Source: Aeromonas eucrenophila (GTDB taxonomy: Bacteria; Pseudomonadota; Gammaproteobacteria; Enterobacterales; Aeromonadaceae). From it: DNA of 64,000 bases. A model generated the notes under the pieces. The model was not told the origin of the DNA, did not search any database, and saw only the letters and a program-made list of their open reading frames with translations. The stretch lies in assembly GCF_000819865.1 (NCBI RefSeq), contig NZ_CDDF01000014.1, positions 141,007-205,006 of the forward strand. Reading direction: 5' to 3'. Both the position numbers and the translations under genes were made by a program. Shown here piece by piece: positions 1,744 through 43,240 of this stretch. Numbering within the stretch: the first letter of the stretch is position 1; each line of letters begins with the position of its first letter.

Positions 1744-2691
1744 ATGCCGATCAAGATCCCGGACCAGTTACCCGCCGCCGAAGTGCTGGGGCAGGAGAAC
1801 ATCTTCGTGATGACGGAATCCCGGGCCGTCACCCAGAACATCCGCCCGCTGCGGGTGCTCATCCTCAACCTGATGCCCAAGAAGATCGAGACCGAGATCC
1901 AGCTGATGCGGATGCTCTCCAACTCGCCGCTGCAGGTGGACGTGGATCTGCTGCGCATCGACGATCGGGAGTCCAAGAACACGCCCCAGGCGCATCTGGA
2001 GAACTTCTACCACGACTTCGAGCAGGTGCGGGGCAACAACTACGACGGCATGATCATCACGGGGGCGCCGCTCGGGCTGGTGGAGTTCGAGGAGGTGGTC
2101 TACTGGCCGCGCATCGTCGAGATCATCGAGTGGTCCCATCAGCACGTGACCTCGACCCTGTTCCTGTGCTGGGCCGTGCAGGCGGCGCTCAAGGCCTTGT
2201 ACGGCATGGAGAAACAGACCCACGGCGAGAAGCTGTCCGGGGTCTATCGCCACCATCGCCTCGATGAGCACGAGGCGCTGCTGCGCGGTTTCGACGACGA
2301 GTTCGTCGCCCCCCACTCCCGTTATGCGGCCTTTGATGGGGATCTTATCCGCGCCCACACCGACCTGCAGATCCTGGCGGAATCCGAGGAAGCCGGGGTC
2401 TATCTGGCGGCGACCAAGGACTGCCGCCAGGTGTTCGTCACCGGCCATCCGGAATACGACGCCCTGACCCTGGACGGGGAATATCAGCGGGATCTGGCGG
2501 CCGGGCTCACCCCCGTCATCCCGGTCAACTACTACCCGAACAACGATCCCGGCCAGACGCCGCGAGCCAGCTGGCGCAGTCACGGCCACCTGCTGTTCTC
2601 CAACTGGCTCAACTATTACGTCTACCAACTCACCAGCTACCGGCTGGAGGACATCGGCAAGGTGTTCACCTACGAGCAGCCCAAGGCATAA
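1744..2691 (+). CDS. metA: Homoserine O-succinyltransferase
   Basis: First committed step of methionine synthesis: transfers an acyl group from acyl-CoA to homoserine. The 315-residue length is normal. The catalytic Cys is at residue 142 (TLFLCWAVQ), and the His/Glu pair is in VTGHPEYD. Residue 111 is Gly ([10 protein letters not shown]); work on this family links Gly at this position with succinyl-CoA use and Glu with acetyl-CoA use, so succinyl transfer is predicted. CAGGGAG lies just before the ATG, and MetJ boxes lie upstream. A decayed second copy of the last 23 codons follows at 2701-2769. Confidence 0.95.
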
Positions 2692-2700
2692 GTATCATTG

Positions 2701-2769
2701 GGCCGGCTCAGTGGCAGTGGGTTGGAGTGTATCGGCAGGGTGTTCGTTTTGCGGCAATCCTGGGCATAA
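2701..2769 (+). pseudogene. Degenerate extra copy of the metA 3' end
   Basis: These 69 bases align without gaps to metA 2623-2691, offset 78 bp, and include the matching stop codon. The conserved core reads ATCGGC, then AGG versus AAG, then GTGTTC. Matching residues include the pattern L-E-x-I-G-R/K-V-F and a final Ala before TAA. Identity is moderate, so this is a diverged tail, not a recent duplication. It lies between metA and the converging phosphatase gene. Confidence 0.55.
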
Positions 2770-2802
2770 GTCACCCTCTCAGCCGGCTTGCAATCAGTCG
2801 GC

Positions 2803-3309
2803 CTACAGCCGCGCCGCCTGGCTATCGAGCCAGTGGCGGTGGCAGGCCAGGGTGAAGGCGTTGGGCCTGCGGGCCCGGATGGCGGCCATGGCCTCCCGCT
2901 GTGGCTGACCCAGGGTCATCAGCAGGAGGGCGGCGACCAGCCCGGTGCGACCGCTTCCCCCACGGCAGTGAATGGCCAGCTGCTTGCCGTCCCGCAGCAG
3001 GGCGATGAGCGACGGCAGCGCCTGCTGCCAGGCCAGCTCGAAATCGGCATCGGGGGCCTCGTCGTCCAGAATGGGCAGATGGAACCAGCCCATGCCCCTG
3101 GCCTCTACCTGCTGGCCAAGCTGCGCCAGATCCCGTGCGGCCAGCTCGTCACCCGTCATCAGGGTGATCAGGGCGTGGGCACCGGCCAGTTGCAACTGGG
3201 AAAGGGCTTGGGGCATGGGCACTTGCTGGGTGCCGGGGCAGGGGGTGAGCAGCAACTGCCCGTCGAGGCGGGGGACCTCCAGGCTCCAGAAGGGATGGGA
3301 AGGGTGCAT
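2803..3309 (-). CDS. Cysteine-based protein phosphatase (DSP/PTP-like)
   Basis: A 168-residue protein with the phosphatase signature HCRGGSGRTG (Cys-X5-Arg loop followed by Thr-Gly) and a preceding acidic LPILDDEAPD segment that could supply the general acid. This places it in the dual-specificity/tyrosine phosphatase superfamily, close to CDKN3-like bacterial members. The substrate is unknown. The ATG at 3309 has AAGGA four bases upstream. An in-frame ATG at 3351 would add 14 residues but has no ribosome site. It converges on metA and is divergent from the Lrp-type regulator. Confidence 0.8.
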   Translation of the reverse strand: MHPSHPFWSLEVPRLDGQLLLTPCPGTQQVPMPQALSQLQLAGAHALITLMTGDELAARDLAQLGQQVEARGMGWFHLPILDDEAPDADFELAWQQALPSLIALLRDGKQLAIHCRGGSGRTGLVAALLLMTLGQPQREAMAAIRARRPNAFTLACHRHWLDSQAARL

Positions 3310-3468
3310 GGGGATCCTTGTGGGGGTCGATTTGGTGTCAAATGAACTCATTGGCGCCGTGCCTGAGCGGGGCAGAGCATAGGGGCCCGGCTCAGGATGT
3401 CAATCTGCGTTGTGTTCGGCCCGGTTTACGGGCAGAGTCTAAAAAAATTGAGCGAGCAAGGAGTAGAG

Positions 3469-3939
3469 ATGAGAAACCTGGATCAACTGGACTTGGACAT
3501 CCTGGCCCATCTGTTTCGCGATGCGGGCATGACCAACAAGGATCTGGCGGCCCTGGTCGGGGTGGCGCCGTCCACCTGCCTGGAGCGGGTACGCAAGCTG
3601 CAACAGGACGGGGTGCTCAAGGGGGCGCACTGCGAGGTGGATTATCAGGCGCTGGGCGGCCACATCCAGGCCATGGTCTCCCTGCAGCTGGCACGCCACA
3701 GCCGACAAATTATCGATGCGTTCCGCGACGCCATCCTGGCCCTACCCGAGGTGATCAGCCTGTTCCACATGGGTGGCAAGGACGATTTCCTGGTGCACCT
3801 CTGCGTTGCCGACACCGAACACCTGCGCAACTTCGTGTTCGATCACTTCACCTCGCGGGAAGAGGTGGTGCACCTCGAGACCTCCCTGGTGTTCGAGCAC
3901 AGATTCAGCCGCTCCTTGCCCTGCTTCACTCAGCCTTGA
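3469..3939 (+). CDS. Lrp/AsnC family transcriptional regulator
   Basis: 156 residues. An N-terminal winged helix-turn-helix (LDLDILAHLFRDAGMTNKDLAALVGVAPSTCLERVRKL, about residues 5-40) is followed by a RAM-type effector/oligomerisation domain (about 65-145). Family members bind amino acids or related ligands and often control neighbouring genes. The divergent phosphatase is the only nearby candidate target. ATG at 3469 is chosen over an upstream in-frame codon at 3397 because AGGAG precedes it and the HTH begins immediately after. A strong terminator follows. Confidence 0.9.
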   Translation: MRNLDQLDLDILAHLFRDAGMTNKDLAALVGVAPSTCLERVRKLQQDGVLKGAHCEVDYQALGGHIQAMVSLQLARHSRQIIDAFRDAILALPEVISLFHMGGKDDFLVHLCVADTEHLRNFVFDHFTSREEVVHLETSLVFEHRFSRSLPCFTQP

Positions 3940-3953
3940 GCTGCAGAGAAAAT

Positions 3954-3981
3954 AAAAAAACCGCCATTCGGCGGTTTTTTT
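3954..3981. terminator. Bidirectional terminator
   Basis: Seven A, stem CCGCC/GGCGG around ATTC, then seven T. It sits between the Lrp-type gene and the converging LtaS-like gene and can serve both. Confidence 0.85.
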
Positions 3982-3996
3982 GTCTGTGGAATTGAA

Positions 3997-5961
3997 TCAG
4001 TTCAGCACGAGTCGACTGTCAGGCGCCGTCTGGTAGAGCCCCTGCTGGTAGGCGAGGCTGCCCCAGAGCACCAGTCCCAGCGCCATCTCCTTTATCTCGT
4101 CCGGCTGGGGGGCCGGGAGCAATTGCTGGCGGACGGCATCGTAGACATAACCCTCAGCTGGCCGCTCCGGCTGCAGTATCACCACGTCCTTGCCCCGCAT
4201 CAGGGCGAAGTTCTTGTCGTACTGCATGATGGCGCGCCCCGGCCAGTCGTCCGGCATCCGGGTCAGATCCTTGCCGAGCATGGGGTAGTCGGCGCTTATC
4301 CCCATCAGGGAGAGCAGGGTCGGCGCCATGTCGATCTGGCTCACGACGCGCTCGTCCTGGCGGGGCTTGATCCCCTCGCCGACGATGACGCCGGGGATGT
4401 GGAAGCGGGGAATGGGCACCAGGCTGGCGCCGCCGACCCGGCTGTCGTGATCGGCGATGACCAGGAACAGGGTGTCTTTCCAGTAGTCGGATTGGCGGGC
4501 CTTCTTGAAGAACTCACCGACGGCGTAATCCGCATACTTGGCGGCGTTGTTGCGGGTCTGCTTGGGCTGCTCGTAGAGGGCGATGCGATTGTCCGGGAAT
4601 TCGAACGGATCGTGATTGCTGGAGCTGAACACCAGGCTGAAGAAGGGCTTGCCCTCCTTGCTCAGGGCCCGGAAGGTCTCGTCCGCCTTGGCCATCAGAT
4701 CCTCGTCAGAGGCGCCCCAGGAGCCTTCGAACACCGGGTTCTCGAAGTCCTTCTGCTCGACGATGTGGCTGAAGCCGTTGCCGAGGAAGAAGCTGCGCAT
4801 GTTGTCGAAGTGGCTCTCGCCGCCGTAGATGAAGCTGGTGCTGTAGCCCCGTTGCTTCAGCAGGTCCGCGATGGTGAAGAAGTTGGTCTGGCTCTTGCCG
4901 AGCTTGACCACGGCCTGGGCCGGGGTCGGGGTGAAGCCGGTCAGCACGGCCTCGATGCCGCGCACCGAGCGGGTGCCGGTGGCATAGAGCTGGTTGAAGG
5001 TCCAACCCTCCTTCGACAGGGCATCTATGTTGGGGGTGAGTGGCAGGCCGCCGAGGGAGCCGACGAACTGGGCGCCCAGGCTCTCCTGCAACAGGATCAC
5101 CAGGTTCTTCGGCTTGCCACCGTAGCTGGCCTCGTTGAAGGTCTGGCTCGGCAGGGCCTCCGAGCTGAAGTCCTGATCCGGGCGGCCGCTCTCCTGGCGC
5201 ACCAGCTCCAGGATCCGCTCCCTTGGCAGCTCACCATAGAACTCCCCGGCGTGCTCCTCGGCCCCCATCTGCTTGATGGCGAAGAACAGGGAGTAGGAGG
5301 AGTTGACCACCAGGGCATTGATCAGGGGATCGCTGGCAAAGGCCACCATGGCGGGGTTGAGGGCTCTGTGCCCCAGGCTGGAGCGGGCGCCGAGGAAGCC
5401 GATGGCCAGGATCAGCAGGGCGAAGGCGGGCCTCAGGTACCAGCGGGGGAAGCTGAGTCCGCGCATCAAACGGCCGCTGAGCCACCAGCCGCCGCCCAGC
5501 ACCGCAGTGCTGAACACCAGGGCCAGCAGCAGCTCCCCCTTGCGACCGGCCCACAGCATGGCGAGCACCTCTTTCGGGTAGATGAGGTACTCGACGTAGA
5601 GGCGGTTGGGGCGTACCCCGTATTCGGTGACGAAGGAGGGGGTGGAGATCTCGAGGAACAGCATCAGCCAGAGCCCCAGAGTCAGCCAGACCCGGATCAG
5701 CGTGAGCCAGGCCCGGCCGAGGGCGTGAGGGCCGGCCAGCAGCAGGGTGAAGACCGCGGGGACACCCCACAGCCAGCAGAGGGTGGCGAAGTCGACGCGC
5801 AATCCCTGCAGCAGCATCTGTGACCAGCCGGCGACGGCGTCGACGCGCTCCTGTTGCCAGAGTCCAAGGGCTGCCCGGCTGGCGGTGAGGCTGAGCAGCG
5901 CGATCACCGAAAAGATGGCAATGGGCCAAAACGGACCCAGCCAATTCCTTATTTTTGTCAT
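3997..5961 (-). CDS. LTA synthase-like membrane sulfatase-fold transferase
   Basis: A 654-residue inner-membrane enzyme. The N-terminal third holds about five hydrophobic segments (around 12-33, 58-78, 85-105, 143-163, 176-194). The periplasmic part begins near residue 283 (KPKNLVILLQESLGAQ) and is an alkaline phosphatase/sulfatase-fold domain: Glu293 as metal ligand, the ATGTRSVRG loop at 327-335 with the likely catalytic Thr, and IADHDSRVGG as later metal ligands. Relatives move phosphoglycerol or phosphoethanolamine groups onto envelope glycans or lipids. The exact acceptor cannot be told from sequence. CAGGA precedes the ATG, and an odd hairpin sits in its leader at 5991-6014. Confidence 0.88.
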   Translation of the reverse strand: MTKIRNWLGPFWPIAIFSVIALLSLTASRAALGLWQQERVDAVAGWSQMLLQGLRVDFATLCWLWGVPAVFTLLLAGPHALGRAWLTLIRVWLTLGLWLMLFLEISTPSFVTEYGVRPNRLYVEYLIYPKEVLAMLWAGRKGELLLALVFSTAVLGGGWWLSGRLMRGLSFPRWYLRPAFALLILAIGFLGARSSLGHRALNPAMVAFASDPLINALVVNSSYSLFFAIKQMGAEEHAGEFYGELPRERILELVRQESGRPDQDFSSEALPSQTFNEASYGGKPKNLVILLQESLGAQFVGSLGGLPLTPNIDALSKEGWTFNQLYATGTRSVRGIEAVLTGFTPTPAQAVVKLGKSQTNFFTIADLLKQRGYSTSFIYGGESHFDNMRSFFLGNGFSHIVEQKDFENPVFEGSWGASDEDLMAKADETFRALSKEGKPFFSLVFSSSNHDPFEFPDNRIALYEQPKQTRNNAAKYADYAVGEFFKKARQSDYWKDTLFLVIADHDSRVGGASLVPIPRFHIPGVIVGEGIKPRQDERVVSQIDMAPTLLSLMGISADYPMLGKDLTRMPDDWPGRAIMQYDKNFALMRGKDVVILQPERPAEGYVYDAVRQQLLPAPQPDEIKEMALGLVLWGSLAYQQGLYQTAPDSRLVLN

Positions 5962-5990
5962 TGTTTTTCCTGATAAAAGCCTGATTTTTT

Positions 5991-6014
5991 ATGCCCGTCC
6001 TCGGGCATTTTTTT
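5991..6014 (+). terminator. Terminator-like hairpin on the plus strand with no plus-strand gene before it
   Basis: ATGCCCG/CGGGCAT stem around TCCT, followed by a run of T on the plus strand. It lies about 30 bp upstream of the minus-strand LtaS-like start codon. Read on the minus strand it is followed by A residues, so it would not terminate that transcript. Confidence 0.5.
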
Positions 6015-6223
6015 ATGTTGCAGGGATATGACCATGGGACCTGGAAAAGGTTGCGTACGGGACAGGAAAAAGACACGGACACCACAGCTGCAATGGCCTC
6101 ATTGTGACGGAGTCCTCTGACCAGTACGAGATAAACGGCTGGAAGAAGTGTGATCCCCACTGCAAAGCAGGGAAGGGGGCGTGCCTATAATGGCGCGGGA
6201 GTCTCTCAATCGGAGCCGCTATC

Positions 6224-6496
6224 ATGCCGGTCTTTCTCGATGTCGAGTATTTGCAGGGGTGGTGCCTGTTCGTGGTGCTCTCGGATGGCACCACGGGGGC
6301 GCTGGATCTGGCCCCCTGGCGGGATCAACCGCTGTTTGCCGCCATCGACTCGGAGCGTCGCTTCGCCCGGGTCTTCATCAATCGTCGCCATCAGCTGGAG
6401 TGGCCGGGAGGCTGCATGCTGGCCGCCCAGGAGGTCTATCACCTGATCAAGGCCGTCGACGAGCGCAGCGCCTTCAACGAGCGCAATCCGCACTGA
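6224..6496 (+). CDS. DUF2442 family small protein
   Basis: 90 residues. The motifs (DGTTGALDLAPW, then L-x-W-P-G-G-C-M-L near residue 60) fit the DUF2442 family, whose members are often near toxin-antitoxin genes or free-standing. Function unknown. No partner toxin is seen beside it. It precedes the amylase gene by 124 bp and is probably separate from it. Confidence 0.65.
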   Translation: MPVFLDVEYLQGWCLFVVLSDGTTGALDLAPWRDQPLFAAIDSERRFARVFINRRHQLEWPGGCMLAAQEVYHLIKAVDERSAFNERNPH

Positions 6497-6620
6497 GAAT
6501 GGCTGGCTAACTCACTGAGCCAGATAACGTTTTCAGTCACAGACCCGTTTTTGCCCGCTGGTTATCATGACCCCAGTAAGGCGCACCCTGCGCCTGTACC
6601 TCCACAGCGGGAAGATAACA

Positions 6621-8252
6621 ATGAAACAGGGAACGTTGCGCTACGGTGGCCTGCTCGGGGCTGCCTTGTTCTTGTCGGCCTGCGGCAGCGGGGGCGGTGG
6701 ATCCAGCACCGAGCCCCAGCCCCCCGTGGTCAATCCGCCGATCACTCAGCCACCGGTGACGACGGCCAGTCGTGCCTGTTATGGTGCCGATCAGCCCGCC
6801 TGCAACCTGCGAACCTATCAGCTGATGGTGGAGTCCTTCGTCGACGGGGATGGCGCCGCCAACTACGGGGTCGGCTACGGTCCTTCCCAGCACAACGGCG
6901 ATCTGCAGGGGATCATCGACAGCCTGGACCACATCAAGAGCCTCAACGTCAACGCCATCTGGCTGACCCCGGTGTTCGACTCCTGCGCCGGCCAGGCGGG
7001 GGACGACAGGCTGGACGCCACCGGCTACTTCGCCTGCGACTTCTTCAATGTCGACCCCAACTTCGGCAGCAACGCCAAACTCAAGACCTTGGTGGATGAG
7101 GCGCACAAACGCGGTCTCTACGTCTTCCTCGACGGTGTGTTCGGCCACGTCAACAAGGTGGGGGTGAGCAAGCCGTCGCCCGAGGGACGGCTGCCCGCCC
7201 TCAAGAGCGGCGGCGCCGGCTACCCGGGCCAGCTGGTGGACTACGGCAAGCCGGAGAGCCTGGCCTACTTCAAGGAGGTGGCCCGCTACTGGGTCGAACA
7301 GTACGGCATCGACGGCTGGCGGCTGGATCAGGCCTATCAACTCGGGCTGGACGAGTGGCGCGCCATTCGCACCGAGGTGGAGCAGGCGAGCGCGGCGCGC
7401 AAGGCCGCCGGTCAGCAGTGGGGCACCCTCGGCTACATGGTAGGTGAGGTGTGGAAGGGGGCGGACGACATCCGCAACGAGGCCTATGGCCCGAGCGACA
7501 ACCCGGCGCTGCCCTCGGCGTTCGACTTCCCGCTGCGCTACGGCCTGATGCAGGCGCTGGCGGTGGAAGAGTCCGGCAAGGGCGGGCAGGGGGCCAGCGT
7601 GCTCGATGCCAGCTGGAACAAGGTGGAAAACTACCCCAACCACGCCATGCCGAACCTGATGCTGGGCAACCACGATCTGGTGCGCTTCGGCGATTTGGTC
7701 CAGCGCGGCAACTTCAACCCGGCGGATTACTGGCAGCGTCACAAGGCGGCCTTCAGCTTCCTAGCGGCCCGCTCCGGTCCCATCACCCTCTATTACGGTG
7801 AGGAGTTCGGGGACGAGGTGCCTGGCTTCGCCAAGCAGGTGACCGACAACTGTGCGGCCCAGGGATTGTGCGACGATCACGTGGCCCGCAGCGACGGCAA
7901 GGTGCCCGGTGTCACCGGCTTCGTGGCGAGCGGCGAGCAGGCGGAGCTCAAGCAGTGGCTGAGCACCTTGCTGGGCCTGCGGGCCAAGCACCCGGCGCTC
8001 TATCAGGGGGAGCGGGTCAAGCTGGTGGCCGACGGCAGCATCTATGGGGACATCAAGCAGACGAAAGGGGAGCAGATCGTCTACCTGCTCAACGTCTCCA
8101 CCACGCCCCAGAGCTACAGCCTGCCGGTTGGCAAGCTGCGCAGCGGCAGCGCCTTGCTGGATCTGCAGAGTGGCGAGAGCCTGGCCATAGGGGGCAGCAC
8201 GGTGACGGTGGACTTGCCATCCCTCACCGGCCGCTTCCTGCTGTTGCAGTGA
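6621..8252 (+). CDS. GH13 alpha-amylase family lipoprotein
   Basis: 543 residues. It starts with a lipoprotein signal (LFLSAC, lipid-anchored Cys21), then a Gly/Ser- and Pro-rich linker, then a TIM-barrel GH13 domain. The three catalytic acids are in the expected contexts: Asp236 in GWRLDQA (nucleophile), Glu276 in VGEVW (acid/base) and Asp352 in GNHD. A C-terminal beta domain completes the family layout. It probably hydrolyses starch or maltodextrins at the outer membrane or cell surface. ATG at 6621 fits the GGGAAG site and places the signal correctly, so the 18 extra codons from 6567 are rejected. Confidence 0.9.
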   Translation: MKQGTLRYGGLLGAALFLSACGSGGGGSSTEPQPPVVNPPITQPPVTTASRACYGADQPACNLRTYQLMVESFVDGDGAANYGVGYGPSQHNGDLQGIIDSLDHIKSLNVNAIWLTPVFDSCAGQAGDDRLDATGYFACDFFNVDPNFGSNAKLKTLVDEAHKRGLYVFLDGVFGHVNKVGVSKPSPEGRLPALKSGGAGYPGQLVDYGKPESLAYFKEVARYWVEQYGIDGWRLDQAYQLGLDEWRAIRTEVEQASAARKAAGQQWGTLGYMVGEVWKGADDIRNEAYGPSDNPALPSAFDFPLRYGLMQALAVEESGKGGQGASVLDASWNKVENYPNHAMPNLMLGNHDLVRFGDLVQRGNFNPADYWQRHKAAFSFLAARSGPITLYYGEEFGDEVPGFAKQVTDNCAAQGLCDDHVARSDGKVPGVTGFVASGEQAELKQWLSTLLGLRAKHPALYQGERVKLVADGSIYGDIKQTKGEQIVYLLNVSTTPQSYSLPVGKLRSGSALLDLQSGESLAIGGSTVTVDLPSLTGRFLLLQ

Positions 8253-8268
8253 CAGGCTGACGGGACAC

Positions 8269-8298
8269 AAAAAAGGGCTCCATAGCGGAGCCCTTTTT
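8269..8298. terminator. Bidirectional terminator
   Basis: A6, stem GGGCTCC/GGAGCCC, T5. Shared by the amylase gene and the converging MgtC/SapB-type gene. Confidence 0.85.
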
Positions 8299-8317
8299 CA
8301 TGGTCAGACGCGAGCCA

Positions 8318-8842
8318 TCATTTCTCGATGCCGCTGCCCAGCTCATCTCGATGGGCGTTGGTGGTGCTGCCGTTGCGCCAGTGCTCCAGCCGGTTGTGCA
8401 CGCCGCGGCGCAGGCTCTTGAAGCTGGTCTCCAGGTAATCCACCCCCACCAGGATGGCCAGGGTGACGCCGGTGAGCAGCAGCGCCTGATGCAGCATGCC
8501 CATGCCGATCAGGGCGCCGAGGGCCGCCAGCATCCAGATGGTGGCTGCCGAGGTGACCCCCAGCACGTGACCATCCCGGGTCATCATGACCCCGGCGCCG
8601 AGAAAACCGACCCCGGTGATGAGCTGGCCAAGCACCCGCGCCTGATCCGCGCTCTGGGGGCTGACCACGGACCCGAGGGCGAGGAAGCAGTAAGTCCCGA
8701 GGATGATGAGGGAGGAGGTGCGAATGCCGACCGGCTTGCCGCGCAGTTGCCGCTCCAGCCCCACCAGGGTGCCACACACCAGACAGACCAGGATGTTCTC
8801 CCAGCCAAGGGGCGCTATGTCCCACCACTGCGTTGTCATCAT
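8318..8842 (-). CDS. MgtC/SapB family membrane protein
   Basis: 174 residues. Contains the MgtC/SapB core GLERQLRGKPVGIRTSSLI and LITGVGFLGAGVMM, with four hydrophobic helices in the first 130 residues and a short basic/polar tail. The family includes Mg2+-limitation virulence factors and broader membrane proteins of unknown activity. The long ACT-like C-terminal domain of true MgtC is absent, so this is the SapB-like short form. The start at 8842 has AGAGG five bases upstream. An ATG at 8839 is equally possible. Confidence 0.85.
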   Translation of the reverse strand: MMTTQWWDIAPLGWENILVCLVCGTLVGLERQLRGKPVGIRTSSLIILGTYCFLALGSVVSPQSADQARVLGQLITGVGFLGAGVMMTRDGHVLGVTSAATIWMLAALGALIGMGMLHQALLLTGVTLAILVGVDYLETSFKSLRRGVHNRLEHWRNGSTTNAHRDELGSGIEK

Positions 8843-8866
8843 AACCACCTCTGCAATCGCTGCTTG

Positions 8867-10309: not shown

Positions 10310-10495
10310 TTTTTTGGCTCCACAGAAAGGACTGCCTTGAATGGCAGGATCCCCAGTGGGCTTCGATGCACCGACAAGCACGACAATGGCGCGAGGGGAA
10401 ACAAGAGGTTACAGTGCCTAATATTCTGCCTTGGTAACCTGTGATACAAGTCGCATTGTTGGTGCTGAGGATAAATAACCGAACGAGGACACCCT

Positions 10496-10972: not shown

Positions 10973-11033
10973 GTGAAGGCATTTCGTTTCAACAAGACAG
11001 ATAACAACAGTGATTCAGATAATGGAGGTTCAG

Positions 11034-11780: not shown

Positions 11781-11803
11781 GTTCGGCGCCCTGCTGAAAC
11801 GAG

Positions 11804-11834: not shown

Positions 11835-11842
11835 GGTGAGCC

Positions 11843-18419: not shown

Positions 18420-18420
18420 A

Positions 18421-24137: not shown

Positions 24138-24752
24138 ATGAGCCATACCCTGCCTGCCCTCGCCTATGCCTACGACGCACTGGAACCCCACATCGATGCG
24201 CTGACCATGGAGATCCATCACAGCCGTCACCATCAGACCTATGTCACCAACCTCAACGTCGCGCTGGAGGGGGCCCCCGAGTTTTCGGCCCTGCCGGTGG
24301 ATGAGCTGCTGCTGAGCTTCGACAGCCTGCCGGCCAAGGTGCAGGGGGCGGTGCGCAACCACGGTGGCGGCCACGCCAACCACAGCCTGTTCTGGCAGGT
24401 GATGAGCCCGCAGGGCGGCGGTGAGCCGACCGGTGAGCTGGCGGCGGCGATCGCCCGGGAGCTGGGGGGGCTGGATGCCTTCAAGCAGGCCTTCACCCAG
24501 GCGGCCCTGAGCCGTTTCGGTAGCGGCTGGGCCTGGTTGACGGTGAACAAGGAGGGCAAGTTGCAGGTGGAGAGCAGCGCCAACCAGGACAGCCCGCTGA
24601 TGCAGGGTAATGTGCCCATCCTGGGGCTGGACGTGTGGGAGCACGCCTACTATCTCAAGTATCAGAACAAGCGCCCGGACTACATCGCCGCCTTCTACAA
24701 CGTCATCGACTGGCCGGAGGTAGCGCGTCGTTACCAACAGGCGCTGGCGTAA
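24138..24752 (+). CDS. sodA: Superoxide dismutase [Mn]
   Basis: 204 residues. Metal ligands are His27, His82, Asp165 and His169 (DVWEHAYY). The Mn-type markers [11 protein letters not shown] and Gln150 (ANQDSP) favour manganese over iron. It removes superoxide in the cytoplasm. Transcribed with the TPR-like gene behind a Fur box. A nearly identical copy of the last 56 bp, starting within the final codons, follows directly after the stop. Confidence 0.95.
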
Positions 24753-24817
24753 GCCAGGCACTCGACTGGCCGGAGGTGGCGCGTCGCTACCAGCAGGCGC
24801 TGGCATAAGCCCGGCAC
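24706..24817 (+). repeat. Tandem 56-bp direct repeat covering the sodA 3' end
   Basis: Unit 1 is 24706-24761 (sodA's last 15 whole codons, stop, nine bases) and unit 2 is 24762-24817, offset exactly 56. The coding parts differ at four positions (GTA/GTG, CGT/CGC, CAA/CAG, GCG/GCA), all synonymous, and one difference lies after the stop. Unit 2 encodes the same C-terminal end and stop but is not attached to a gene. Confidence 0.9.
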
Positions 24818-24831
24818 TGGCCGTTACCGCT

Positions 24832-24885: not shown

Positions 24886-25779
24886 TCAGTCGGTCGCCTT
24901 GTCTGCCTCTGTCGCGACGGCAGCACTGGTCGCCTCGGCGCCACTCGCTGTGGCCGAGGCACTGCTGGTTGCGGTGGCTAACGCGGCACTGGTCGCCGTT
25001 GCTGAACTTGTGGCGGTCGCCGCGCTGGGCACGGCTTGCGACGGCTTCGGGGGCGTGGCCGGGGCCTTGGCGGCCGGGATGGGCAGGCAGGGCTGGCTCG
25101 TCCCTATGGTGCTCAGGGCCTGGCAGGGAACGGGGCCGCCGATGACGATGGGCTCGCCGAGGAACTTGGGCCCCTTGTCCAGCACGTAGAGATCGAGCAA
25201 CCCCATCAGCCGGGCGAACACCTCGCGCACCCGGGTGCGGATGCCCTGATAGGCGCTGGGATCCAGCGCGTTGAAGCCGACCGCGTCTATGCCGAAGTGG
25301 CGGGCGATGAAGATGGCGCGCTCGTTGTGGAAGGCCTGGGAGACCACGGTGAAGTGAGCCTGACCGAACACCTCCTTGGCCCGCACTATGGAGTCAAGGG
25401 TGCGAAAGCCCGCGTAGTCGCTGTAGATGGCGCTGGCCGGGATGCCGGCCTGGATCAGGGCGCGCCGCATCTGGCGCGGCTCGTTGTACTGTACGGTCGC
25501 GTTGTCGCCGGAGACCAGGATGTAGTCCACCTTGCCGTTGTTGTAGAGCTCGGCGGCGGCCTTGATCCTGTATTTGAAGTAGTGATTCGGACTGCCGCCG
25601 ATCAGATATTTGGAGGTGCCGAGCACCACGGCGACCCTGTTGTAGGGCACCGCATTGACGTCGTCATAGGTGTAGTGACGGGCGTCCGAGACGGTCCACT
25701 CGCTGTAGCCGAGCAGTGCGATGGCGGAGGCCAGCAGCAGGCAGAGGCAGGCGAGCAGGATCTTGGCAAACTTCTTCAT
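24886..25779 (-). CDS. sanA: SanA/ElyC-like membrane protein with a low-complexity tail
   Basis: 297 residues. The N-terminal membrane segment (about 5-25) is followed by a DUF218/SanA domain (RVAVVLGTSKYLIGGSPNHYFKYRIKAAAELY, then DYILVSGDN and SQAFHNERAIFIARHFGI). SanA affects envelope barrier function (vancomycin exclusion at high temperature in E. coli). Unlike E. coli SanA (239 residues), it continues with a 70-residue Ala/Thr/Ser-rich tail with repeated A-T-S triplets. The ATG at 25779 lacks a clear ribosome site; the upstream in-frame Met is no better. Confidence 0.85.
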   Translation of the reverse strand: MKKFAKILLACLCLLLASAIALLGYSEWTVSDARHYTYDDVNAVPYNRVAVVLGTSKYLIGGSPNHYFKYRIKAAAELYNNGKVDYILVSGDNATVQYNEPRQMRRALIQAGIPASAIYSDYAGFRTLDSIVRAKEVFGQAHFTVVSQAFHNERAIFIARHFGIDAVGFNALDPSAYQGIRTRVREVFARLMGLLDLYVLDKGPKFLGEPIVIGGPVPCQALSTIGTSQPCLPIPAAKAPATPPKPSQAVPSAATATSSATATSAALATATSSASATASGAEATSAAVATEADKATD

Positions 25780-34749: not shown

Positions 34750-34782
34750 AGGGCTCTCGCAGTGAGGAAACAATGGAAAACG

Positions 34783-36129: not shown

Positions 36130-36339
36130 GGATGTCTTGTCTGAGCCGGATAGTCGCAATCGCTCTGGGGGAGGATGGCGCAGGTTGATGCCAAAGGGCG
36201 ATGATTTCCTATATATTATCTGCCCATTCTTCCATGTAAATTGCCCGAGGGAGCCTCAGCCCCCACGGAGCCAAGTATACCTAAATCCGGTTCGATAACC
36301 CTTAACACGATCAATATCTGATTGTTTGGCCAACACAAT
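36130..36339. promoter_or_regulatory. Divergent menF/menA promoter region
   Basis: 210 bp between the two start codons. It contains an AT-rich stretch with TATATTAT near 36210 that could be a -10 element. No operator could be assigned. Confidence 0.4.
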
Positions 36340-37245
36340 ATGACAAATACCTTCTCTGTGTGGTTGCTGGCGGCGCGTTTGCGAACACTGCCCCTTGCCT
36401 GTTCTTCGATTTTGTTGGGCGCCGGACTGGCTGCCAGCCGGGGTGCCTTCGACGGTGCCATCATGGGCCTCTCCCTGCTGACCGCCATCCTGTTGCAGAT
36501 CCTCTCCAACCTGGCCAACGACTACGGCGATGCGGTGTCCGGCGCCGACAACGGCGAGCGGATCGGCCCCCAGCGCGCCGTGGTCTCAGGTCTCATCACC
36601 CGCCAGCAGATGTGCGTGGCCATGGGGCTGACCGCCCTGGCGGCGGTGGTGAGCGGGCTGGCCCTGCTGATCTGCGCCTTCGGTGAGGAGTGGCAGCAGA
36701 TCCTGACCTTCGTCCTGCTGGGCGGCGCCGCCATCGTTGCGGCCATCACCTACACGGTGGGCAAGACTCCTTACGGTTATCGCGGCTTCGGCGACATCTC
36801 GGTGTTTCTGTTCTTCGGCCTGCTGGGGGTGCTCGGCTCTTATTACCTGTTCACCCACAGCCTGCAGTGGGATCTGCTGTTGCCCGCCACCGCCTGTGGC
36901 CTGCTGGCGACGGCGGTGCTCAACATTAACAACGTGCGCGACATAGAGACGGATACCGCCAGCGGCAAGATCACCCTGGCGGTGCGGCTCGGTCGCAACC
37001 GTGCCATCGCCTACCACTGGGCCCTGCTGGGGGCGGCGCTGCTGGCCACCATCGCCTTCCTGCTGATCCAGCCTGCCAGTTTCTGGCCCTGGATCTTCCT
37101 ACCCGCCATGAAGCCCCTCGCCGATGCCGCCCTCACCCTGCGTACGAGCTTCGATGGTGAGGTGCTGACGGGGGCCCTCAAGAAGACAGCCATCAGCGCC
37201 TTCCTGTTCAGCCTGCTGCTCTCCATCGGGCTGGCGCTTTCCTGA
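36340..37245 (+). CDS. menA: 1,4-Dihydroxy-2-naphthoate polyprenyltransferase
   Basis: 301 residues, UbiA-type membrane prenyltransferase with about eight to nine helices. Both Asp-rich motifs are present: SNLANDYGDAVSGADN and NNVRDIETDTASGK. It attaches the polyprenyl chain to form demethylmenaquinone. ATG at 36340 (MTNTFSVWLLAARLRTLPL) fits the family start. Divergent from menF. Confidence 0.93.
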   Translation: MTNTFSVWLLAARLRTLPLACSSILLGAGLAASRGAFDGAIMGLSLLTAILLQILSNLANDYGDAVSGADNGERIGPQRAVVSGLITRQQMCVAMGLTALAAVVSGLALLICAFGEEWQQILTFVLLGGAAIVAAITYTVGKTPYGYRGFGDISVFLFFGLLGVLGSYYLFTHSLQWDLLLPATACGLLATAVLNINNVRDIETDTASGKITLAVRLGRNRAIAYHWALLGAALLATIAFLLIQPASFWPWIFLPAMKPLADAALTLRTSFDGEVLTGALKKTAISAFLFSLLLSIGLALS

Positions 37246-37261
37246 GTTTCTTCACAATAAA

Positions 37262-37286
37262 AACGGCCCCTTCGGGGCCTTTTTTA
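37262..37286 (+). terminator. Terminator after menA
   Basis: GGCCCC/GGGGCC stem with a short loop, followed by seven T. Confidence 0.85.
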
Positions 37287-37491
37287 TTGGTGCCATTCGC
37301 GGAATTTTCCAATCAATTCAGGGCTGTTTTCACGGGCTGTACGCCAAATAGCCGTGATCCGGTCGGCAATATTGATAAATTTTCCGGGCGGCTCGCCGAC
37401 TTGTGACGGCCCCCGATTGTGGCACCTGGGGGATTGCTATAGAGATGTAACTGTACCTGGACGTATATGTAAAAACGATGAAGGGAGACTT

Positions 37492-39618
37492 ATGGACAAG
37501 TTAGGGAAACACCTTGGATGGATGCTGATGGCGCTGGTCGGTGCCAGCTCACTCGGCTATATCGCCCTCAATCGGGGCGAACAGATCAACGCACTCTGGA
37601 TAGTGGTCGCGGCGGTGTGCGTCTATCTGATCGCCTATCGCTACTACGGCCTGTTTATCGCCAAGCACGTGCTGGCGGTGGACGGCACTCGCATGACGCC
37701 GGCGGTGCGCCACAACGACGGTCTGGACTATGTGCCGACCGACAAGAAGGTGCTGTTCGGCCACCACTTTGCCGCCATCGCCGGCGCCGGCCCCCTGGTC
37801 GGCCCGGTGCTCGCGGCCCAGATGGGCTACCTGCCCGGCATGCTCTGGCTGCTGGCCGGGGTGGTGCTGGCGGGGGCGGTGCAGGACTTCATGGTGCTGT
37901 TCGTCTCCACCCGCCGCGATGGCCGCTCCCTCGGTGAGCTGGTCAAGGCGGAGATGGGGCCGACGGCTGGCGTCATCGCCCTCATCGCCACCTTCATGAT
38001 CATGGTGATCATCCTGGCGGTGCTGGCGATGATAGTGGTCAAGGCGCTGGCCCACAGCCCCTGGGGCACCTACACCGTGGCCTTCACCATACCGCTCGCC
38101 ATCTTCATGGGGATCTACACCCGCTACCTGAGGCCAGGGCGCATCGGTGAGGTCTCCATCATAGGCCTGGTGTGCCTGATCTTCGCCATCGTCTCCGGTG
38201 GCTGGGTGGCCGAGAGCGAGACCTGGGCGCCCTATTTTGACTTCGACGGGGTGCAGCTGACCTGGATGCTGGTGGGCTACGGCTTCGTCGCCTCTGTGCT
38301 GCCGGTCTGGCTGCTGCTGGCGCCGCGGGATTATCTCTCCACCTTCCTCAAGATCGGCACCATAGTGGGTCTGGCCATCGGCATACTGGTGACCCAGCCA
38401 ACCCTGCAGATGCCGGCGCTGACCCAGTTCATCGACGGCACAGGTCCGGTCTGGGCCGGGGATCTGTTCCCCTTCCTGTTCATCACCATCGCCTGTGGCG
38501 CCGTCTCCGGCTTCCACGCGCTGATCGCCTCCGGCACCACCCCCAAGATGCTGGCCAACGAGAACCAGGCCTGCTTCATCGGTTACGGTGGCATGCTGAT
38601 GGAATCTTTCGTCGCCATCATGGCGCTGGTGGCGGCCTGCGTCATCGATCCGGGCGTCTACTTCGCCATGAACAGCCCCATGGCGGTGCTGGCACCGGCG
38701 GGCACCGCAGACGTGGTGGTCTCCGCCGCCGCCGTGGTGAGCAGCTGGGGCTTCCAGATCACCCCGGACACCTTGACCCGTATCGCCAGCGAAGTGGGTG
38801 AGCAGAGCATCATCTCCCGCGCCGGTGGCGCCCCGACCCTGGCGGTCGGCATGGCCTACATACTGCACGGTGCCCTCGGCGGCTTGATGAACGTCGCCTT
38901 CTGGTATCACTTCGCCATTCTGTTCGAGGCGTTGTTCATCCTCACCGCGGTGGACGCCGGTACCCGGGCTGCCCGCTTCATGCTGCAGGATCTGATGGGG
39001 GTCATCTCTCCCTCCCTCAAGCGCACCGACTCCCTGCCGGCCAACCTGCTCGCCACCGCCCTGTGCGTGCTGGCCTGGGGTTACTTCTTGCATCAGGGGG
39101 TGGTGGATCCGCTCGGTGGCATCAATACCCTGTGGCCGCTGTTTGGTATCGCGAACCAGATGCTGGCGGGTATGGCACTGATGCTCTGTGCCGTGGTGCT
39201 GTTCAAGATGAAGCGTCAGGCCTATGCCTGGGTGGCGCTGCTGCCCACCAGCTGGCTGCTGATCTGTACCCTGACCGCCGGTTGGGAGAAGACCTTCAGC
39301 GACAATCCCAAGCTCGGCTTCCTGGCCATCGCCAACAAGTTCCAGGGGATGATCGACAGCGGCACCATCCCGGCTCAGTACACCGAATCCCAACTGGCCC
39401 AGCTGGTATTCAACAACCGGCTGGATGCGGGCTTGACGATGTTCTTCATGCTGGTGGTGGTGGTGCTCGCCGCCTTCTCGGTCAAGACGGCTCTCAAGGC
39501 GCTGCAAAACCCGCAGCCGACCGCCAACGAGACCCCCTATCAGCCGATGCCGGCGGGCAAGGGGACGGCTCAGCCCAAGTCTGATGACGACGGCGATCTG
39601 GCCCCGAGCCTCAAGTAA
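37492..39618 (+). CDS. btsT: CstA-family pyruvate transporter
   Basis: 708 residues with about 16-18 membrane helices. It closely follows E. coli BtsT (YjiY) along its length: RGEQINALWIVVA, LFGHHFAAIAGAGPLVGPVLAAQMGYLPG, CGAVSGFHALIASGTTPKML, GGAPTLAVG and KRTDSLPA. BtsT is a pyruvate/H+ symporter used on nutrient change; CstA is the paralogous peptide transporter. ATG at 37492 follows AAGGGAG. First gene of btsT-yjiX-yjiA, the same order as E. coli. The 246-bp leader has no site I can assign, apart from a possible CRP half-site near 37412. Confidence 0.93.
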   Translation: MDKLGKHLGWMLMALVGASSLGYIALNRGEQINALWIVVAAVCVYLIAYRYYGLFIAKHVLAVDGTRMTPAVRHNDGLDYVPTDKKVLFGHHFAAIAGAGPLVGPVLAAQMGYLPGMLWLLAGVVLAGAVQDFMVLFVSTRRDGRSLGELVKAEMGPTAGVIALIATFMIMVIILAVLAMIVVKALAHSPWGTYTVAFTIPLAIFMGIYTRYLRPGRIGEVSIIGLVCLIFAIVSGGWVAESETWAPYFDFDGVQLTWMLVGYGFVASVLPVWLLLAPRDYLSTFLKIGTIVGLAIGILVTQPTLQMPALTQFIDGTGPVWAGDLFPFLFITIACGAVSGFHALIASGTTPKMLANENQACFIGYGGMLMESFVAIMALVAACVIDPGVYFAMNSPMAVLAPAGTADVVVSAAAVVSSWGFQITPDTLTRIASEVGEQSIISRAGGAPTLAVGMAYILHGALGGLMNVAFWYHFAILFEALFILTAVDAGTRAARFMLQDLMGVISPSLKRTDSLPANLLATALCVLAWGYFLHQGVVDPLGGINTLWPLFGIANQMLAGMALMLCAVVLFKMKRQAYAWVALLPTSWLLICTLTAGWEKTFSDNPKLGFLAIANKFQGMIDSGTIPAQYTESQLAQLVFNNRLDAGLTMFFMLVVVVLAAFSVKTALKALQNPQPTANETPYQPMPAGKGTAQPKSDDDGDLAPSLK

Positions 39619-39629
39619 ACGAGTCACCA

Positions 39630-39653
39630 GGCCGGCACCCCGGGGTGCCGGCC
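39630..39653 (+). terminator. Intercistronic perfect palindrome between btsT and yjiX
   Basis: Two 12-nt arms, GGCCGGCACCCC and its complement, directly abutting, followed by TCATTGAT. It could fold into a strong hairpin that terminates some transcripts or protects the btsT message end. Confidence 0.55.
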
Positions 39654-39678
39654 TCATTGATAGCCCCAAGGAGCTAGC

Positions 39679-39876
39679 ATGTTCGATACCCTGGCCAAGG
39701 CGGGCAAGTATCTGGGCCAGACCGCCAGACTGATGGTGGGCGTGCCCGATTACGACAACTACGTGCAGCACATGCGGCTGACTCACCCCGAGCAGACCCC
39801 CATGAGCCACGACGAGTTCTTTCGCGAACGCCAGGATGCCCGCTACGGCGGCAAGAATGGCGGGCGCTGCTGCTAA
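39679..39876 (+). CDS. yjiX: YbdD/YjiX family small protein
   Basis: 65 residues. The family pattern G-x-x-x-Y-x-x-Y-V-x-H-M is present ([37 protein letters not shown]), ending with GGRCC. It always lies next to CstA/BtsT transporters and is thought to assist them, but no biochemical activity is established. AAGGAG precedes the ATG. Confidence 0.92.
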
Positions 39877-39902
39877 TACTCTGCCATCACAGGACTCCCA
39901 TC

Positions 39903-40916
39903 ATGACGCAAGCTGTAGCGGTCACCTTGCTGACCGGTTTTCTCGGCGCCGGCAAGACCACCCTGCTCAACCACTTCCTGCGCCACCAGGCCAACGCCTC
40001 CGTGGCCATCCTCGAGAACGAGTTCGGCGCCGCCAATATCGACGGCGACCTGCTGCAAAGGGGGGATGGGATCAGCGTGGTGGAGCTCAGCAACGGCTGC
40101 GTCTGTTGCAGCGTGCGCGGTGAGTTTCGCGCCGCCCTGGCCGATCTGCTGGCCCGCCGGGCCGCGGGGGAATTGCAGTTCGAGCGGCTGATCGTCGAGA
40201 CCACGGGGCTCGCCGACCCGGCTCCCATCATCCAGACCTTCTTCGTCGAAGAAGAGTTACGGGATGCCCTGCGTCTGGATGCGGTCGTGACCCTGGCCGA
40301 TTGCGAGCACATAGCCCGCCAGCTGGACGTGCATCCGGTGGCGGCGGCCCAGCTCGGCTTTGCGGATCGCATCCTGCTCACCAAGACCGACAGGGTGGAC
40401 GAGGGGATGCGGGCGGCCGCCATCGCCCGCGTACACAGGATCAACCCCAGGGCGCAGATCCTCGACATAGTGCAGGGGGAGTGCCCGGCCGCACTCTGGC
40501 TGGACCTCGATGCCTTCACCCTCAGCGACGAGCTGAACCTGATCCCGGGCCTAAACATAGTGCGGGCCGGACGCCAGGGCTTCGAGGCCTTCTCGCCGCT
40601 CTCGGCCCAGCCCCGCTCCTGGCACGACGCCATCTCGGCCCAGCTGTTCGAGGGGGGCGAGCTGGATCTGAAGCGGATCGGCGCCTTTATGGAGCAGTGC
40701 ATCGATCAACATGGCAACGACATGCTGCGCTACAAGGGGGTGCTGGCCATCGCCGGGGAGCCGCGCCGGCTGATAGTGCAGGGGGTGCACAAGGTAGCGG
40801 GGTTCGACTACGGCTCCCCCTGGGGGGAGGAAGTACCGCAGTCCAGGCTGGTGATCATCGGTCGCTACCTGCCCGTCGCCGAGTTGCGCGCAGGCTTTGC
40901 CGCGGCGCAAGGATGA
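39903..40916 (+). CDS. yjiA: CobW/COG0523-type GTPase
   Basis: 337 residues. Walker A GFLGAGKTTLLNHFL at 13-27, the metal-binding C-x-C-C motif in SNGCVCCSVRGE, guanine specificity LTKTDRV and a C-terminal CobW domain. G3E GTPases act in metal handling. In E. coli yjiA follows yjiX and btsT, as here. Located 26 bp after yjiX, so cotranscription is likely. Confidence 0.93.
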   Translation: MTQAVAVTLLTGFLGAGKTTLLNHFLRHQANASVAILENEFGAANIDGDLLQRGDGISVVELSNGCVCCSVRGEFRAALADLLARRAAGELQFERLIVETTGLADPAPIIQTFFVEEELRDALRLDAVVTLADCEHIARQLDVHPVAAAQLGFADRILLTKTDRVDEGMRAAAIARVHRINPRAQILDIVQGECPAALWLDLDAFTLSDELNLIPGLNIVRAGRQGFEAFSPLSAQPRSWHDAISAQLFEGGELDLKRIGAFMEQCIDQHGNDMLRYKGVLAIAGEPRRLIVQGVHKVAGFDYGSPWGEEVPQSRLVIIGRYLPVAELRAGFAAAQG

Positions 40917-40929
40917 GGAGCCACCGCCG

Positions 40930-41148
40930 ATGCGCGCATCACTGAGAGAGAAGATGATCCGGGTCTGCCACCAGAAAATCGCCCAGAAGGGGGAGGGGGT
41001 GGGTGTCTCCTTCTATGCGTTTTTTGCCAACAAGAATGAGGATCCTGCACTCTTGATGGAGGCCGCCACCTGGTGGATCCAGACTCATGAGCTAGACCAT
41101 TTCGAGAAGGCCAGCAAGATCATCAGGTTGGTGGAGGCCACCGCCTAG
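40930..41148 (+). CDS. Small conserved protein downstream of yjiA
   Basis: 72 residues, family not confirmed. The sequence MRASLREKMIRVCHQKIAQK is followed by GVSFYAFFANKNEDPALLMEAATWWIQTHELDHFEKASKI, mixed alpha/beta and without a signal. GAGGAG lies nine bases before ATG 40930, only 13 bp after yjiA, so it is probably the fourth gene of the btsT operon. The 11 additional in-frame residues upstream overlap yjiA and are unlikely. Confidence 0.75.
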   Translation: MRASLREKMIRVCHQKIAQKGEGVGVSFYAFFANKNEDPALLMEAATWWIQTHELDHFEKASKIIRLVEATA

Positions 41149-41161
41149 GACAAGATCAATC

Positions 41162-41190
41162 AAGAAGGGCTCCTTATGGGAGCCCTTCTT
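41162..41190. terminator. Terminator
   Basis: AAGAAGGGCTCC/GGAGCCCTTCTT stem with a 5-nt loop, weak T tail. Likely ends the btsT operon and possibly the converging PepSY gene. Confidence 0.65.
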
Positions 41191-41236
41191 GCATTAGTAG
41201 AACTGATGGCCAAGGCCGCCGTGGAGGCCTGATGGC

Positions 41237-42634
41237 TCAACTGCTCTGCGCCGCTTCGGTTTCCCGGCGGGAGAAGATCAGCGTGTCCAGCAGCCAGATG
41301 ACGATCATGGAGGCGCCGACCAGCGGGAATGCGATCCCGAGCAGTACCAGCACGGCGATGGCACCACGCATCGGCGGCAGCTTGGCGGGCAGGGGCGGGG
41401 CGGCGAGCCGGCCTTGCGGGCGGCGGCTCCACCAGATCCAGAGCCCGCTCACCGCGCTCAGCAATACCATCAGGCAGATGATCAGCATGACGAGCTGGTG
41501 GGGCCAGCCGTAGAGCTTGCCGGTGTGCAGCATGACGCCGGTTTCCACCGTCTTGGCAACCGGGCCGTAATCCTGCCAGCGCACGTCGGCCAGCACCTTG
41601 CCGCTGTACTGATCGATGTGCAGAGTGGCGTCGTTGCGCGGATCGTCGGCGAACAGGGCTATGGTGTAGACGCCGCTCTCGCCGGCGGGCGGGGTGATGC
41701 TGTAACCCGGGGTGACCTTGCGCTCGCTGGCGAGCTCCACCACCTGCTGCAGCGGGATGCGATGGCTCGGCATCACCATGCCCTCATGCCCGGCACCGTG
41801 GTTCATGGCGCTGTGATCGTGGCCCTCGGCGGCTGGCTGCGAGCTCGGCATGGGCATGGTCTCAGCCCCCCAGGGGACGGTCTGCGCATGAGCCTGGTTG
41901 AGGCTGCGGGTGAGGGGGGCGGATTTCGGTACCTCGTTCCACATGGCCGCCGGGAAACGATTCCAGACGCTGGCGAACTGATCGCCCCAGAAACCGGTCC
42001 AGGTCATGCCGCTGAGCAGCAGCAACAGCAGGAAGCCCGCCCCCCAGAAGCCGACCACGGCGTGCAGATCCCGCCACCAGAGGCGTCCACGCTGGCTCAT
42101 TCTGGGCCAGAGGATGCCGCCGACACCGGGGCCCTTGCGCGGCCACCACAGGTAGAGGCCGCTGATGAGCAGCACTATGCCCCAGCCGGCGGCCAGCTCT
42201 ATCAGGCGATCCCCCGTGGGGCCGATCAGCAGCTCGGCGTGCAGGGCGCGCGCCACCGCTTGCAGGTTCCACTTGTTGTCCATGGTGCCGAGCAGGGCGC
42301 CGCTGGCGGGATCCATGAACAGGGTCAGCTCGTTGCCCTGCTGGCGGACGATGAACTGGGCGCTCTGATCCGGGGTCGCGGGAGGCAGGTACTTGCTGAG
42401 GCTGGCATCCGGCATGGCGATCATCGCCTTGGCCAGCAACTGATCGGCGCTCAGGGTTTGGCTAGCGGGGACCACCTTCATCAACTCGGGATACATGATG
42501 TTGTCGAGCTGGGGTTTGAACAGATACACCATGCCGGTGAGGGAGAGCAGGATCAGGAAGGGCGCGACGAAGAGACCGGCGTAGAAGTGCCAGCGCCAGA
42601 TCCTCTGGTAATGATTCGCATCGTGAGTTTTCAT
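41237..42634 (-). CDS. PepSY-associated membrane protein with a His/Met-rich loop
   Basis: 465 residues. Four main membrane helices (about 16-38, 155-175, 199-225, 385-410) plus a C-terminal pair fit the PepSY-TM family (PiuB-like), many of which are linked to iron or other metal/siderophore use and ferric reduction. Paired His residues in the helices (WRWHFYAGL, HAELL, RDLHAVVGF, MLHTGKLYGWPHQL) could hold haem. The periplasmic loop near 290-310 is rich in His and Met (EGHDHSAMNHGAGHEG), a metal-binding composition. ATG at 42634 has AAGGA seven bases upstream. A TTTTATT/AATAAAA inverted repeat lies at 42707-42726. Confidence 0.8.
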   Translation of the reverse strand: MKTHDANHYQRIWRWHFYAGLFVAPFLILLSLTGMVYLFKPQLDNIMYPELMKVVPASQTLSADQLLAKAMIAMPDASLSKYLPPATPDQSAQFIVRQQGNELTLFMDPASGALLGTMDNKWNLQAVARALHAELLIGPTGDRLIELAAGWGIVLLISGLYLWWPRKGPGVGGILWPRMSQRGRLWWRDLHAVVGFWGAGFLLLLLLSGMTWTGFWGDQFASVWNRFPAAMWNEVPKSAPLTRSLNQAHAQTVPWGAETMPMPSSQPAAEGHDHSAMNHGAGHEGMVMPSHRIPLQQVVELASERKVTPGYSITPPAGESGVYTIALFADDPRNDATLHIDQYSGKVLADVRWQDYGPVAKTVETGVMLHTGKLYGWPHQLVMLIICLMVLLSAVSGLWIWWSRRPQGRLAAPPLPAKLPPMRGAIAVLVLLGIAFPLVGASMIVIWLLDTLIFSRRETEAAQSS

Positions 42635-42706
42635 CTCTGATCCTTGCGGCGGTGAGAAAGGTTGCTGCAGGTGGAACCTTTGGTGGCGCGGATGATAGCA
42701 GCAACG

Positions 42707-42726
42707 TTTTATTAACTGCAATAAAA
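42707..42726 (-). promoter_or_regulatory. AT-rich inverted repeat upstream of the PepSY gene
   Basis: TTTTATT, six bases, AATAAAA, located about 73 bp before the start codon. Could be an operator; it is not a recognisable Fur box. Confidence 0.35.
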
Positions 42727-42825
42727 CATAGCATGCCACTCCATGGCCGGATGCCGAGCCAGGCGGCGGTTGGCAGAGTGCGGCAGAGCCCGGGTTAGCC
42801 GGGGCTCGTCTGGAAAGGAGCCTCG

Positions 42826-42940
42826 TTATTGACCGCCAGGAGGGGCGGCCTTGTCGATGCAGTCGGGTTCACCCATCTCGAACTCGCGGTAGATGAGGGG
42901 CGCACCTCATGGAGGCGGCACATCAGATGATGGGTGATCC
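42826..42940 (-). pseudogene. Remnant of a ykgJ-like 3' end
   Basis: On the minus strand this region matches the 3' part of the adjacent intact gene (42983-43070, offset 130), including the exact 29-nt run ending in the codons for C-I-D. One base is lost relative to the intact copy (CGCCCC-TC versus CGCCCTTTAATC), which shifts the frame. After the shared part it has its own different ending (codons for D-K-A-A-P-P-G-G-Q and TAA at 42826-42828). So it is the tail of a different allele, not a precise duplicate. Confidence 0.75.
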
Positions 42941-42949
42941 ATTAGGGGG

Positions 42950-43240
42950 TTAGTTCAGCGTGATAAACCACTTGTCCCGCTCGTCGATGCAGTCGGGTTC
43001 ACCCATCTCGAACTCACGGCAGATTAAAGGGCGTACCTCGTAGATGCGGCACATCATGGTGTTGCGATCCAGCGCCGCACACCAGCCATCTTCCAGCCGG
43101 TGCATCACGGGCACCTGTCCCTCTATCTCGTCCACGTAGCGATCCGGCACGCCGGTATCGGTAAATAGCATCACTTCGAGGCGGCAGCAGCAGGCTTCGC
43201 AGTTCTGGCAGCTGACCTCGGCTTGGGGTTGTTTGTTCAT
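42950..43240 (-). CDS. YkgJ-type cysteine-cluster protein
   Basis: 96 residues. The N-terminal CQNCEACCCRLE and later Cys in DGWCAAL, MMCRIYEVRPLICREFE and EPDCID form the CxxCxxCC...C...C...C pattern of the YkgJ/CxxCxxCC family, thought to bind a metal or Fe-S cluster. Function unknown. ATG at 43240 is preferred over 10 upstream in-frame residues. Followed by a remnant of another copy of its 3' end. Confidence 0.85.
   Translation of the reverse strand: MNKQPQAEVSCQNCEACCCRLEVMLFTDTGVPDRYVDEIEGQVPVMHRLEDGWCAALDRNTMMCRIYEVRPLICREFEMGEPDCIDERDKWFITLN

Follow-up and report, generated by a model that had tools for sequence, protein, structure and literature searches.

Extra copies of gene ends beside intact genes in Aeromonas, and short tandem duplication as their probable origin

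In the stretch of Aeromonas eucrenophila DNA analysed here (64,000 nucleotides, hereafter the window), three intact genes are each followed by an additional copy of their own 3' end. This layout raises the questions of whether it is confined to one locus or recurs through the genus, and of how a gene would come to be flanked by a piece of itself. Close direct repeats of bacterial genomes, which lie adjacent to each other, measure tens to hundreds of bp and expand and contract, provide the background for both.

Gene tails in the window and in relatives

The first of the genes, metA, is intact (1744..2691, plus strand) and encodes a homoserine O-succinyltransferase, matched above cut-off by TIGR01001; a decayed copy of its 3' end with the stop codon lies on the same strand at 2720..2771 (36/52 identical). 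The intact superoxide dismutase gene sodA (24138..24752, plus strand) matched NF008177, the Mn type, at an E value of 4e-83 that is under the curated cut-off of the model. Its last 47 nt and the 9 nt that follow make up the first 56-bp unit of repeat family D5 (24706..24761). The second unit (24762..24818), consisting of the tail copy with its stop and 10 nt past it, abuts the first with 52 of 57 positions identical, forming a clean 56-bp tandem repeat running beyond the stop. The third gene is intact on the minus strand at 42950..43270, with a possible alternative start at 43240 (the gene call was 42950-43240). Its translation contains a CxxCxxCC-type cysteine motif; the protein gave no match in an NCBIfam search, and we take the gene to be ykgJ-like. 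The corresponding 3' end copy (42850..42941, minus strand) is identical in 78 of 94 columns, and its divergence sets in 30 nt ahead of the stop codon of the gene.

When the final 200 bp of a gene were compared with the 300 bp downstream of it, the observed score was attained by none of 300 dinucleotide shuffles, and this was so for all three genes. The tail copies proposed in the original prediction were thereby confirmed, as were their shared orientation with the gene and their three levels of decay. Inclusion of the stop codon holds for sodA and metA and fails for the ykgJ-like gene, and the description of the genes as unlinked was loose, all three lying inside about 40 kb. The metA copy is weak when taken alone: after a small change of the windows compared, one shuffle out of 40 scored as high as the copy did (both 18), and it falls under the threshold of 22 used in the gene-end scan described below. 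It was accepted mainly because the same site in Aeromonas aquatica (genome G002) contains three clear copies. The window copy is the counterpart of metA tail arrays in G002, G017, G018, G022 and G023.

Elements that integrate at gene 3' ends have as their hallmark an intact gene with a tail copy behind it, and the copies could be footprints of such elements, each having carried a replacement tail. The layout fits, but at the three window loci gene and tail copy are at most 28 bp apart and, as had been noted, have no element between them; the occurrence of tail arrays and of copied gene heads, both described below, also speaks against this origin, which is very improbable. The signature of a diversity-generating retroelement, with mismatches only at template adenines, was not found in the three alignments, where mismatches were mixed.

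The region around each gene was then used to search 37 Aeromonas genomes, and the returned loci were read. A sodA tail copy was present in one of 25 loci, that of the window itself. Within the stretch searched after sodA (24886-25200 of the window), the end of the following minus-strand gene is poorly conserved between species, while 25071-25199 matches most relatives well. Clear metA copies were found in 5 of 30 genomes, in addition to the decayed window copy, and 18 ykgJ copies were found in 13 of the 29 genomes scored. Copies were also seen in G021, whose ykgJ locus contains a run of N and was left out of the own-versus-foreign scoring and the codon-position counts given below; for the same analyses the gene end in G028 was set by hand. 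Each window gene has a single extra tail, and arrays of several units were seen in relatives only. These are tandem arrays of a tail with its stop plus a spacer, at metA in G002 and at ykgJ in G002, G003, G008 (A. dhakensis) and G025 (A. salmonicida), with some units identical. The metA array of G002 contains two identical 78-bp units and a third, more diverged one; the ykgJ array of G025 has two additional units, of which the first measures 144 bp. The ykgJ copies of G002, G004, G008, G012, G013 and G014 read ATCCATGA where their genes, compared by eye, read ATCTAYGA, as if the copies in these six genomes had a single origin.

Gene-end copies in Aeromonas and other genera

A genome scan of gene ends against the sequence downstream, with a shuffled control, had been suggested as a check on the recurrence of the pattern. 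It was carried out on parts of three Aeromonas genomes (G000, G010 and G014; 1.24 Mb) and on seven other genera (1.4 Mb), with genes called by our own simple codon-usage script and not by a standard tool. For tails, the last 120 bp of each gene were compared with the 300 bp downstream, and for heads, its first 120 bp with the 300 bp upstream; a local score of at least 22 was counted as a match, and genes shorter than 240 bp were outside the scan. Tail copies within 300 bp were found at 22 of 1086 Aeromonas genes as against 2 of 1154 genes in the other genera (Fisher 1e-5), and upstream head copies at 11 of 1084 as against 0 of 1148 (Fisher 3e-4), the three Aeromonas samples being not fully independent because their gene content overlaps. 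Shuffled controls (best of three per gene) gave no matches. By genome, tails numbered 9/387 in G000, 8/345 in G010 and 5/354 in G014, and heads 5/386, 4/344 and 2/354; the preponderance of tails over heads was not significant (p 0.08). The strong excess is independent of the discovery cases, since only the window sodA and ykgJ-like genes and the ykgJ gene of G014 are among the 22 tails; ykgJ of G010 is absent because of the 240-bp limit. The pattern is thus real and genus-wide rather than local, with end copies about ten times commoner in Aeromonas than in the other genera sampled.

Among the controls, four other genera of the order gave tails at 1/655 genes and heads at 0/652, while a 65% GC genome of the class, a 59% GC genus of the same family and 200 kb of E. 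coli K-12 together gave 1/499 and 0/496. The single control tail match in G170 was diffuse with many gaps and was judged to be chance. The one clear tail copy outside Aeromonas was noted in G045 (C1:223995-225380; 91/105 identical). The two control genomes of high GC content showed no excess, and GC content was rejected as a cause. Exonuclease loss was likewise rejected, ExoI (PF08411) and RecJ (TIGR00644) being present in all three Aeromonas samples; G050 and G170 were without an ExoI match, yet showed no excess of end copies. Nor was gene orientation retained as a cause (tails 17 same and 5 opposite vs a background of 729 and 356; heads 9 and 2 vs 715 and 368).

The 33 flagged gene-copy pairs, whose matches were individually inspected in part, have identities of 0.71-0.98, and none is perfectly identical. 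Unit lengths range from 49 to 229 and are mostly about 50-160 bp. Ten proteins were named by family, with some matches below the cut-offs of the models; those of the ten that belong to flagged genes match GspF, XerC, a Na+/H+ antiporter, LptG, FtsX, an ABC permease and a CdaR-type regulator. Seven pairs of flagged genes are orthologous between Aeromonas samples. This recurrence at the same genes in different species, together with the roughly ten-fold excess, would be expected of a process specific to Aeromonas (an enzyme, a replication feature or sequence hotspots) that makes end copies repeatedly at particular genes. The shared copies may, however, be inherited, inspection of the printed units by eye brought no common motif to notice, and the unit lengths vary widely; we regard such a process as an unlikely explanation.

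A scan for tandem repeats without anchoring to gene ends gave 32 repeats that touched a gene end or lay half in and half out of a gene in the 1.24 Mb of Aeromonas, one of the 32 being a simple repeat, as against one in 0.8 Mb of the four other genera of the order. Purely intergenic tandem repeats were not raised (7 vs 6 in the same samples) and coding repeats were about two-fold up (27 vs 8), with a period that was a multiple of 3 in 34 of 35. A general rise in tandem repeats was rejected as the cause of the excess on these counts.

Head copies and possible stop-start coupling

Copies of gene starts were characterized by where the reading frame from the copied start ends. In 10 of 11 head copies this frame stops no more than 15 nt from the true start, where 4.4 were expected from duplications of the same size placed at 1084 genes (P 3e-4). 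In one of the ten the copied position lacks a start codon, and excluding this case leaves 9 of 10 (P 5e-4); counting each orthologous locus once leaves 7 of 8 (P 0.0035), all three P values being optimistic because the 15-nt limit was set after the values had been seen. Gene-start copies thus appear to tend to persist as tiny reading frames that end at the real start. In these copies the upstream stop overlaps or nearly touches the next start, the arrangement of translationally coupled genes.

A chain of this kind lies between lptF and lptG, both of which were named by family search. An 8-codon ORF with a TGATG overlap at each end is present between the two genes in G000 (C14:275200-275480). 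At junctions without head copies (G002 and G017) the lptF stop overlaps the start of the 8-codon ORF and the stop of that ORF overlaps the lptG start, giving TGATG twice. Sixteen genomes with extra copies were read, 14 of them picked by match spacing and the others being G000 and G010, and in 14 of the 16, a count that is not a frequency, the copied head begins and ends in TGATG, with peptides that differ and lengths that vary. The exceptions are G022, which is frameshifted, and G005, in which the copied start lacks a TGATG and the lptF stop is located elsewhere. The lptF stop falls within TGATG in 17 of 18 genomes read. At ftsE-ftsX in G000 the layout is as at lptF-lptG.

According to a review of termination-reinitiation coupling, a spacing of -1 nt, which is the TGATG stop-start overlap, is enriched, and spacings of -4 to +3 nt are the most efficient (PMC12548453). 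Selection for ribosome hand-over fits the lptF-lptG chain, since its spacing falls within this range, and the small ORFs at head copies may accordingly be translated, coupled and under selection, a reading made from sequence. The chain resembles the coupled pairs of that review in its -1 nt overlaps and differs from them in having extra small ORFs, the longest of which derives from a duplicated gene head. It is also conceivable, and we put this forward tentatively as somewhat doubtful, that a lineage-specific process continues to make short tandem boundary copies and that selection turns the heads among them into coupled leader or linker ORFs, which would now help to bring ribosomes to genes such as lptG and ftsX. 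Among the by-products of the analysis the coupled head copies are the most interesting, and a genus-wide load of end copies would offer a natural setting in which to test the strictness with which stop-start coupling is kept.

Origin of the end copies

The most likely origin of the tail copies, and a probable one, is that they are remnants of short tandem duplications with later exchange at gene ends. A short segment, mostly of about 50-160 bp, would be duplicated in tandem with its breakpoints on both sides of a gene end, and such a duplication would survive because one gene stays intact. A breakpoint past the stop would leave an extra 3' tail downstream, and one before the start an extra 5' head upstream. 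In the Aeromonas samples such copies have accumulated along the chromosome, several of them being common to more than one species. The repeats, once there, would have expanded and contracted, and unequal exchange or gene conversion, with alleles from other species included, would have made them partly uniform. Selection would then retain head copies whose frame ends at the true start, allowing ribosomes to be handed over by termination-reinitiation. This account predicts copies of both heads and tails, inclusion of the spacer in the unit, and arrays, and all three were observed: the copies are adjacent and direct, in the orientation of the gene, and in relatives the spacer belongs to units that can number more than two. 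The duplication step itself, the homogenisation and the age of the copies are what we infer from these patterns.

The original prediction had proposed repeated allelic replacement, here modelled as homology-facilitated illegitimate recombination during transformation, in which donor DNA would be joined by homologous recombination in or before the gene and by illegitimate recombination past the stop, with the tail of the recipient left behind it. Several observations agree with replacement and sit poorly with duplication. Among 28 ykgJ and metA copies scored, 12 matched their own gene best, 2 tied and 14 scored higher with the gene of another species, in a comparison that leans towards foreign genes because the best of 28 or so was taken; the uniform closeness of tail copies to their own gene that had been named as evidence against replacement was therefore not seen. 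Differences between gene and copy favour third codon positions at ykgJ (40:24:116 by position; 116/180, or 64%) and, more weakly, at metA (29:15:37; 37/81), and in the coding part of sodA all four fall there (0:0:4). For the sodA copy, the tail of G017 is a slightly closer relative (44 matches) than its own gene (43/47). In G004 and G020 the last copy has no spacer after it, which simple duplication would leave unless deleted, and runs into a flank unlike that of the gene. Against replacement, arrays contain several units of tail plus spacer where one leftover tail per event is expected, heads are copied as well as tails, and the ykgJ copies of G014 (score 89 with the own gene vs 75 with the best foreign one), G025 (97 vs 81) and G010 (89 vs 81) are clearly nearest their own gene. 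No mosaic step was seen along sodA, metA or ykgJ apart from an overall rapid evolution at the 3' ends of sodA and metA. Repeated replacement is consequently not the best fit and is improbable as the general cause, whereas it is possible at the origin of individual cases, sodA among them.

Because a neutral copy should look less like a diverged coding allele, either alleles were exchanged between species after duplication or the copies were partly constrained; the third-codon bias together with the copies nearer to foreign alleles suggests exchange on top of duplication. Tandem duplication with such exchange also has to accommodate the lack of any perfectly identical gene-copy pair (0/33), the no more than about two-fold rise in coding repeats and the unraised number of intergenic tandem repeats, though short gaps would favour units that straddle a gene end.

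Short tandem duplication is a known class of mechanism, and the genus-wide excess and the coupled head copies are the new part; neither the excess nor the lptF-lptG chain was described among the matches listed from the open-licence literature. The Aeromonas copies resemble known close direct repeats in being adjacent and in expanding and contracting, and differ in being concentrated at gene ends in one genus, with several common to different species. Merodiploids formed by natural transformation (PMC3784515) are similar as partial duplications possibly tied to DNA uptake; the Aeromonas units differ in being short and adjacent and in occurring in the reference genomes of more than one species. 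If end copies are a load of the whole genus, they would illustrate how partial duplication can give rise to intergenic space and small reading frames in compact genomes. They can also lead gene callers and surveys of small ORFs astray, and through them the rate at which short tandem duplications arise in Aeromonas can be tested directly.

Other repeats were also noticed. A minus-strand ORF of 1297 codons in the window (47322-51215) contains in-frame repeats of 267 bp and 258 bp, and repeats of nearby sizes, 264 and 258 bp, occur in G010 (C1:470366-471931), which also has a 36-bp coding repeat (C1:445977-446218). Tandem tRNA-like units with a period of about 106 bp are present in G000 (C14:264878-265450) and in G010 (C1:546960), and G014 contains a long array of the 8-bp unit TGATTACC (C1:551970-552196).
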